Below, in pieces: positions 59,612 through 61,106 of a stretch of 64,000 nt of DNA; the stretch's first letter is position 1; each line of letters opens with the position of its first letter. The notes below the pieces were generated by a model that was given only the letters and a program-made list of their open reading frames with translations, had not been told where the DNA came from and made no database searches. The stretch comes from Sphingomonadales bacterium Ga0077531 (GTDB lineage: Bacteria > Pseudomonadota > Alphaproteobacteria > Sphingomonadales > Sphingomonadaceae). The position numbers and the translations under genes were made by a program. The stretch covers positions 1 through 64,000 of the forward strand of contig LNED01000013.1 in the NCBI GenBank assembly GCA_001464915.1, written 5' to 3'.

Positions 59612-60196
59612 TCACGGCTTGGCCGAGCCGATCTTGGGCTCCTCCCCGCGCATCAGCCGCCCGATATTGGCGCGGTGCTGCACCAGAACGATCGCGGCAA
59701 TGGCGAGCAGCGGTGCGATCGTCTGAGGGTAGCCCAACCCCCACGCCACCGCAGGCGCGGCGACCACGGTGGTCATCGATGAGACCGAAGAAATCCGGCT
59801 GAGATACAGCACCGCCGCCCAGATCGCGGCGCAGGCCAACATTGCAGGCCACGCCAGCGCCAGCAGCGCGCCCGCTGCACTCGCGAACCCTTTGCCGCCC
59901 TTGAACATCAGCCACGGGGTGAAGCAATGCCCTGCCACCGCTGCGACGCCTGCCACCCCTTCCGTGCCCGGCCAGACTTGTCCGGCGATCAGCACCGGCA
60001 CCGCCGCCTTGGCCGCGTCAAGTAGCACTGTGGCCGCCGCCAGCCCCTTGTTGCCCGTCCGCAGCACGTTGGTCGCGCCGATGCTGCCGCTACCTATGTC
60101 GCGCACATCGCCCAGCCCGGCGGCGCGCGTGAGGATCAGACCGAACGGGACTGATCCCAGCGCAAAGCCCAATAGTGCGGCGAAAACAGCTTCCAA
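59612..60196 (-). CDS. plsY: Glycerol-3-phosphate acyltransferase PlsY (TTG start)
   Basis: EAVFAALLGFALGSVPFGLILTRAAGLGDVRDIGSGSIGATNVLRTGNKGLAAATVLLDAAKA. Confidence 0.95.
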   Translation of the reverse strand: MEAVFAALLGFALGSVPFGLILTRAAGLGDVRDIGSGSIGATNVLRTGNKGLAAATVLLDAAKAAVPVLIAGQVWPGTEGVAGVAAVAGHCFTPWLMFKGGKGFASAAGALLALAWPAMLACAAIWAAVLYLSRISSVSSMTTVVAAPAVAWGLGYPQTIAPLLAIAAIVLVQHRANIGRLMRGEEPKIGSAKP

Positions 60197-60201
60197 GACA
60201 C

Positions 60202-60300
60202 TCTCCGTTCGCCCTGAGCTTGTCGAAGGGCCGCACTTCTTCTAGCGCCCAGAGTGCCAAAGGAAAGACGAGGCTTCGACAAGCTCAGCCCGAACGGAGA
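60202..60300. repeat. Inverted repeat filling the plsY-murI divergent intergenic region
   Basis: TCTCCGTTCGCCCTGAGCTTGTCGAAG (60202-60228) and inverse of TCTCCGTTCGGGCTGAGCTTGTCGAAG (ends at 60300); 25 of 27 positions identical. Confidence 0.95.
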
Positions 60301-60305
60301 TTTTT

Positions 60306-61106
60306 TTGAACGTCAAAGCATCCTCCCCCATCCTGCTGTTCGATTCCGGCGTTGGCGGGCTGACGGTGTATGACGCCCTGCGCGAGGTGCTGCCCCATGC
60401 CCCGGTGATCTACGCCGCTGATCTCGCCGGGCTCCCCTATGGCACGAAGACCGAGACGCAGATAGCTACGCGGGTCGCCGGATTGCTCGGGCGGATGGCC
60501 GAACGATACCAGCCGCGCCTTGCCTGCATTGCCTGCAACACGGCGAGCACGATTGCGCTCGGCATGGTGCGCGATGTGCTGGAGATACCTGTGGTCGGCA
60601 CTGTGCCGGCGATCAAGCCTGCCGCCGCGCTTACCCGCACCGGCACCATCGGCCTCGTCGGCACCGAGGCGACCATCCGCCAGGCGTATGTCGATGATCT
60701 TGAGGCGCGCTTTGGCAACGGCACCCGCCTGTTGCGGGTTGCCGCCCCCGGTCTGGTCGCGGCAGCCGAAGCGAAGCTGCGCGGGCACCCGGTTGATCCC
60801 GCCATTATCGCCGATGTCCATGCGCGGCTTACCGCCATGCCCGGGGCGGCAGATATCGACACGTTGGTGCTAGCCTGCACCCACTTCCCGCTTCTGTCGG
60901 ATGAACTCACCGCTGCGTTCGGCGACAACGTCCGCCAAGTCGACGGCGCGGCCGGCATCGCGCGGCGGATCGCGCACCTGCTCGAAGGCCAAAGCTTCGC
61001 CGCAACCGGCCCCAACCGTTTCATCGTCACCGGCCCATTGGCAGGCGCCGCAGGGCTGGAAGCCGCCCTCGCCGCGCGCGGATTTGGCCCGCCTGAAGCG
61101 TTCTGA
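60306..61106 (+). CDS. murI: Glutamate racemase (TTG start)
   Basis: SPILLFDSGVGGLTVYDALREVLP; ACIACNTAST; LVLACTHFPLL. Confidence 0.96.
   Translation: MNVKASSPILLFDSGVGGLTVYDALREVLPHAPVIYAADLAGLPYGTKTETQIATRVAGLLGRMAERYQPRLACIACNTASTIALGMVRDVLEIPVVGTVPAIKPAAALTRTGTIGLVGTEATIRQAYVDDLEARFGNGTRLLRVAAPGLVAAAEAKLRGHPVDPAIIADVHARLTAMPGAADIDTLVLACTHFPLLSDELTAAFGDNVRQVDGAAGIARRIAHLLEGQSFAATGPNRFIVTGPLAGAAGLEAALAARGFGPPEAF

Follow-up and report, generated by a model that had tools for sequence, protein, structure and literature searches.

A dispersed REP dimer that seems to have been domesticated as leader and ribosome-binding site of plsY and murI

Introduction

REP sequences form head-to-head dimers, described for the GTAG and CGTC superfamilies (Di Nocera 2013, PMC3733652), and REPINs (Bertels and Rainey 2011, PMC3116915). 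The location of REPs and REP dimers near gene boundaries is already known (PMC3733652). Published REPs are mostly found at the 3′ ends of genes.

The Ssn/NTS system of Neisseria, in which a GIY-YIG nuclease is tied to scattered cognate repeats, is another close relative of the locus described here. The Neisseria repeat is not known to act in translation initiation.

The window, a stretch of 64,000 nucleotides, comes from a bacterium of the Erythrobacter/Porphyrobacter group and includes the divergently oriented genes plsY and murI. The gap between them is probably a non-autonomous REP dimer, associated with GIY-YIG nucleases, that settled at this site and was retained as a shared 5′ region. 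Judged by its anatomy and by comparison with relatives, a dispersed repeat seems to have been domesticated here as the leader and ribosome-binding site of both genes.

Anatomy of the plsY-murI gap

The two genes start on divergent TTG codons separated by 109 bp (60197-60305), and the REP dimer, from CCGTTCG through CGAACGG, takes up 93 of these (Table 1). This is the gap with inverted arms that was described in the initial annotation, with which coordinates and arm matches agree. The 15-mer CTGAGCTTGTCGAAG is found exactly twice in the window, once on each strand (60214-60228, +; 60274-60288, -), and the count stays the same if one mismatch is permitted; the chance expectation in the shuffled window is 0.01. 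The outer arms of the gap read TCTCCGTTCG (60202-60211) and CGAACGGAGA (60291-60300). The arm sequence as first annotated is right overall except for the number of T's, of which the murI side has seven rather than eight (GGAGATTTTTTTG). The CC/GG dinucleotide does lie between the outer stem and the REP body, but it is unpaired across the arms.

Table 1. Coordinates of plsY, murI and the features of the gap between them
Feature	Position	Strand	Basis
plsY, glycerol-3-phosphate acyltransferase, TTG start	59612..60196	-	TIGR00023, PF02660
murI, glutamate racemase, TTG start	60306..61106	+	TIGR00067, PF01177
REP dimer, whole element (inverted REP units)	60205..60297	.	136-arm consensus from 68 copies
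Left REP unit, CCGTTCG-CC-CTGAGCTTGTCGAAG-GG	60205..60230	+	sequence, arm consensus
Right REP unit, inverted, minus-strand CCGTTCG-GG-CTGAGCTTGTCGAAG-CC	60272..60297	-	sequence, arm consensus
GGAG, putative plsY Shine-Dalgarno, 6 nt from TTG	60203..60206	-	sequence; presumed function
GGAG, putative murI Shine-Dalgarno, 6 nt from TTG	60296..60299	+	sequence; presumed function
Core of the spacer, TTCTTCTAGCG, oriented; candidate for a promoter element or a signal in the leader	60237..60247	+	comparison; presumed function

A GGAG had been noted just upstream of both TTG codons, and it is indeed present at the same short distance on either side. The arms were thought to supply these Shine-Dalgarno (SD) sites, which is half correct. 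Judged by the dispersed copies, the element ends in CGG, so that it contributes the GG of each GGAG and the flanking bases contribute the A and G.

A dispersed family of REP-like units

The repeat belongs to a family of REP-like units with GTTCGNNCTGAGCYTGTCGAAG arms. The window genome has three inverted pairs and one additional match outside the pairs, and 60 congeneric genomes have between 0 and 28 exact pairs each, bearing out the initial view of a dispersed repeat. Pairs occur in just one of 40 genomes that represent other families of the order. A search of the window with Rfam at the gathering score gave one tRNA and no match for the repeat.

Each arm is laid out as a small tagged palindrome, GTTC followed by G-NN-CT-GAGCTTGTC-ga-AG-N′N′-C. 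The GTTC tag is present in nearly all 136 arms of the 68 dispersed copies. Although NN varies (CC, TG, TC, GG), it pairs with N′N′ of the same arm in 128 of the 136 dispersed arms and in 66 of 74 arms at plsY-murI loci. Within a pair, NN is identical in both arms in 6 of 68 copies, against 20.6 expected, and across the plsY-murI pair loci, 70 arm changes are one-sided and 12 matched. Since NN and N′N′ are complementary within arms and NN is rarely alike between them, the single-arm hairpin is the unit that is kept. A long inter-arm hairpin as a conserved feature is unsupported, given that NN mostly differs between arms and arm changes are mostly one-sided; the pairs apparently avoid long, perfect inverted repeats.

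All pairs have inverted arms, corresponding to the terminal inverted repeats of a MITE. Visual inspection of the three copies in the window genome, for which there is no clean empty site for comparison, revealed no recognisable target-site duplication. One of these copies (L005, C43 of the window genome, position 55775) has a second, CCCCGGATCCCCGGCCTGCGCCGGGGCAGGC-like repeat family about 50-110 bp to its right, which is also seen in relatives. In the gaps at L085, L089, L098, L103, L109, L163 and L175, an extra small palindrome (e.g., GGAAGCGTAGCTGGGCGTTGCCCAACC) occurs near the REP hairpin loop of one or both arms, as if repeats were nesting inside repeats.

The gap in related genomes

A total of 132 plsY-murI loci, congeneric and from other genera, were compared. 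Both arms are present at 37, one arm at 14 and neither at 62, while the other 19 have a large gap; the pair is found in 33 unique congeneric gaps and four from other genera. As proposed in the initial annotation, relatives were compared at this gap, and the plsY-murI copy turns out to be common to many of them, unlike the C22 copy of the window genome, which occurs at no orthologous site in relatives with both flanks found. The left flank of the C43 copy is not conserved in relatives.

The large gap measures about 830-1130 bp and contains two small ORFs whose products look, on inspection, like a LuxR-type HTH protein and an EF-hand protein. It is found at L090, L100, L102, L118-L121, L130, L133, L134, L139 and L140, among others. 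Both genes look leaderless at these loci, with GGCTATnAC a few nucleotides before the plsY ATG and TTGACC...GGCCATCG before the murI ATG. Many repeat-free gaps (L138, L143, L157, L164 and similar) have a different core, CCTARGTAAWAG followed by CGACAAG, which occurs at 22 of the 45 repeat-free loci of the genus and never together with the pair. The right half of this core resembles the right REP arm.

The pair, large-gap and repeat-free states all occur both within the genus and in other genera. On the plsY tree, the large-gap state is nearly random, with 17 changes for 19 rows, which suggests that the region has been exchanged between species, although the tree is weakly resolved, with 64 of its 126 inner branches open, and the order of gains and losses cannot be read from it.

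Spacer core, promoters and RNA folding

The spacer between the arms has a core, TTCTTCTARYG, that is always on the plus strand. It is present at 28 of the 33 unique pair loci of the genus versus three of 66 dispersed copies. The 12 nt that follow it are only 37% identical between species. At the congeneric pair loci, the tips of the element and the oriented core are conserved while the adjacent spacer drifts. At L132, L150, L154, L187 and L198, the asymmetric spacer looks inverted, its right-hand side resembling GCTAGAAGAAAGTGCAG, which would fit a flip between the arms or an insertion the other way round.

Neither an intrinsic terminator nor a sigma-70 consensus promoter was found in the gap. 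A promoter reading that takes TTGTCG as -35 and the CTA within the core as -10 has roughly the expected spacing but a weak match. Because the element makes up so much of the gap, both promoters should lie within it or inside the opposite gene.

The gap has folding z-scores of -5.05 on the plus strand and -5.17 on the minus strand. For the window sequence, an RNA that crosses both arms is predicted to have an unpaired probability of 0.00 at both SDs. In a plsY RNA that begins in the spacer, the corresponding value for the SD is 0.26-0.98; the picture is less clear-cut for the equivalent murI RNA, in which the GGAG can pair with the early codons TCCTCC.

Shine-Dalgarno sites and start codons

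Since no match to the 16S tail was found in the assembly of the window genome, the standard anti-SD CACCUCCUUU was used. With this sequence, the SD energies are -6.8 kcal/mol (plsY) and -5.8 kcal/mol (murI) at pair loci, and -4.0 and -2.3 kcal/mol, respectively, at large-gap loci. Where the arms have decayed (L116, L122, L125, L126, L141, L146, L150 and L154), one side or both still have GGAG or GGGA at the proper distance from the start. The murI SD is weak at L086, L114 and L095 despite intact arms and is therefore not universal. Finding the same SDs in relatives without the repeat had been named as evidence against a leader role. For the most part, repeat-free relatives have an AAGG-type SD or none at all; L116 and L126 are exceptions, and these look like decayed repeats.

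The same relationship between tip and start codon is seen in the family elsewhere. Tips that lie 5-12 nt from a start codon read GGAG or GGGG on 12 of 15 sides, compared to 28 of the 90 other sides (p = 0.0009), made up of one of 15 far-start sides and 27 of 75 stop sides; the gene calling behind this comparison was simple, and orthologues of a single gene (L054, L056 and L255 resemble each other) enter the count separately. In far-start copies, the SD is distinct from the element and lies downstream of it, whereas in near-start copies the tip is used.

These numbers bear on the possibility that the element is a passive bystander that landed beside existing SDs, with such insertions surviving best and the match to GGAG being half coincidence, due to the CGG tip. 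The A and G outside the element would fit such a history, and so would the GGAG or GGGG seen at 36% of stop-side tips and the roughly twofold preference of dispersed copies for gene ends over gene starts (75 versus 38 sides). It would not account for the use of the tip by near-start copies when far-start copies have their own SD, nor for a core that is oriented and specific to the plsY-murI locus. Moreover, an element that is almost the whole gap leaves little room for promoters elsewhere, and the pair has been retained in many species. A bystander is unlikely, though less so than the other alternatives below.

The repeat is also associated with the type of start codon used by murI. All 33 repeat-bearing congeners have an ATG, GTG or TTG start, versus 16 of 44 repeat-free ones. 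The other 28 of 44 (44-45) have no such codon near the expected start, and most have none further upstream either, as far as the in-frame stop; in most of these, an ATT or ATC is conserved. The ATT stands in the conserved context ACC-ATT-ACC-GAC-GCA at L138, L143, L157, L164 and L183, for example. ATT is likely to initiate murI in these repeat-free congeners. On the plsY tree, which is weak, few independent pairs bear on the contrast in start codons; two to three of them agree and none disagrees (p = 0.25). Repeat-free loci of other genera have a canonical murI start in 16 of 17 cases; the ATT start is therefore a feature of the lineage and need not be ancestral.

A GIY-YIG nuclease as partner

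At two loci, arms 331 bp apart bracket a small gene for a GIY-YIG nuclease (PF01541). The nuclease protein was used as a query against 114 congeneric genomes, and 30 of the best loci were inspected. Inverted arms are found on both sides of the gene at 25 of these 30 and on one side at one, and at the remaining four, a sister repeat, GTTCGNNTCGAGCGAAGTCGAGA, lies around the gene. CGTC-like palindromes surround other GIY-YIG genes of the order. At L355-L384, L340 and L347, each GIY-YIG subfamily has its own type of inverted REP (CTGAGCTTGTCGAAG, TCGAGCGAAGTCGAGA or CGTC-like palindromes), and the 3′ end of the nuclease gene sometimes runs into its flanking repeat.

Pairs are commoner in genomes with an arm-flanked nuclease (10 of 11, versus 24 of 50; p = 0.016) and also more numerous in them (p = 0.002), kinship being ignored in both comparisons. 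The nuclease presumably mobilises the REP pairs. The window genome offers only a GIY-YIG gene that is 41% identical and lacks these arms. With the cognate nuclease absent, the copies in this genome look non-autonomous.

Such a partner raises the question of whether the arms act as DNA only, as sites for the nuclease or for recombination, and are kept by repeated conversion or exchange between species rather than for the expression of plsY and murI. The arm-flanked GIY-YIG genes and the complementarity within arms, at dispersed and plsY-murI copies alike, are what would be expected of such sites, and the scatter of the three gap states on the tree, with the large gap nearly random, would be expected of exchange. 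However, the arms are intact in the window genome despite the missing cognate nuclease, GGAG persists where arms decay, and the oriented core is left unexplained, all of which makes this reading improbable, more so than that of a bystander. An ordinary RAYT-driven REPIN, whose architecture of tagged REPs in a head-to-head dimer is the same (PMC3733652), is very improbable, and a RAYT partner was rejected, as Y1_Tnp (PF01797) is absent from the window genome (G000) and from the pair-rich genomes G001, G004, G011, G025, G028 and G029, no arms occur near the Y1_Tnp loci fetched from other genomes, and the tag is GTTC, neither GTAG nor CGTC.

A proposed role for the element

In the favored explanation, a GIY-YIG-associated REP dimer retained as the shared 5′ region of plsY and murI, copies would have spread with the aid of a linked nuclease that was lost from the window genome or was never in it. 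Both promoters would be located inside the element, and the divergent mRNAs would begin in the spacer. In each mRNA, one of the arms would then form a small hairpin in the leader, together with an SD made of the element tip plus two flanking bases, and initiation at both TTG codons would use the GGAG as its ribosome-binding site. In a transcript across both arms, by contrast, the SD would be buried in a long hairpin.

Domestication of the repeat had already been put forward in the initial annotation. The dispersal of the repeat, the site shared with relatives and the survival of GGAG beyond the arms all agree with it; the GGAG is half flank, however, and the functional step is one that we infer. 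A broader proposal, and a more speculative one that may well not hold, is that REP dimers of the GIY-YIG-linked type serve as portable control modules that act in both directions, in which the tips provide SDs and the spacer a divergent promoter, and which alternate at plsY-murI with a non-canonical AUU-type start and weak SD and with a cassette whose mRNAs look leaderless.

Comparison with known systems

A literature search on the arm sequence, on Erythrobacter REPs and on GIY-YIG nucleases with REPs turned up, as the only relevant item, the line for E. cryptus in the table of a survey. Within this incomplete coverage of the literature, no description was found of the GTTC-tagged REP family, of a single dimer that supplies the SDs of two divergent genes, or of a dimer alternating with alleles that have an ATT start or look leaderless. 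At this locus, two core envelope genes seem to receive translation signals at once from one selfish palindromic repeat, in a form that can be read across more than 100 genomes, and the natural loci with and without the repeat allow the effect of a REP on gene expression to be compared.

Like MITEs used as promoters or leaders, the plsY-murI copy is a non-autonomous inverted-repeat element reused for regulation. Unlike in MITEs, the linked gene is a GIY-YIG nuclease rather than a DDE transposase, and a target-site duplication could not be recognised by eye. With the Neisseria Ssn/NTS system, the family (though not the window itself) shares a small GIY-YIG gene between copies of a repeat scattered over the genome; here, however, the cognate gene is absent from the window genome, and the arms are only candidate sites at which single-stranded DNA would be cut specifically. 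The resemblance to REPs and REPINs lies in the short, tagged, bulged and imperfect palindromes, in the inverted dimers with outer tags and in the many intergenic copies that hug the ends of ORFs. The family differs from them in its GTTC tag and lack of a RAYT, and the plsY-murI copy in its place between two genes with divergent starts, for each of which it forms the putative SD.
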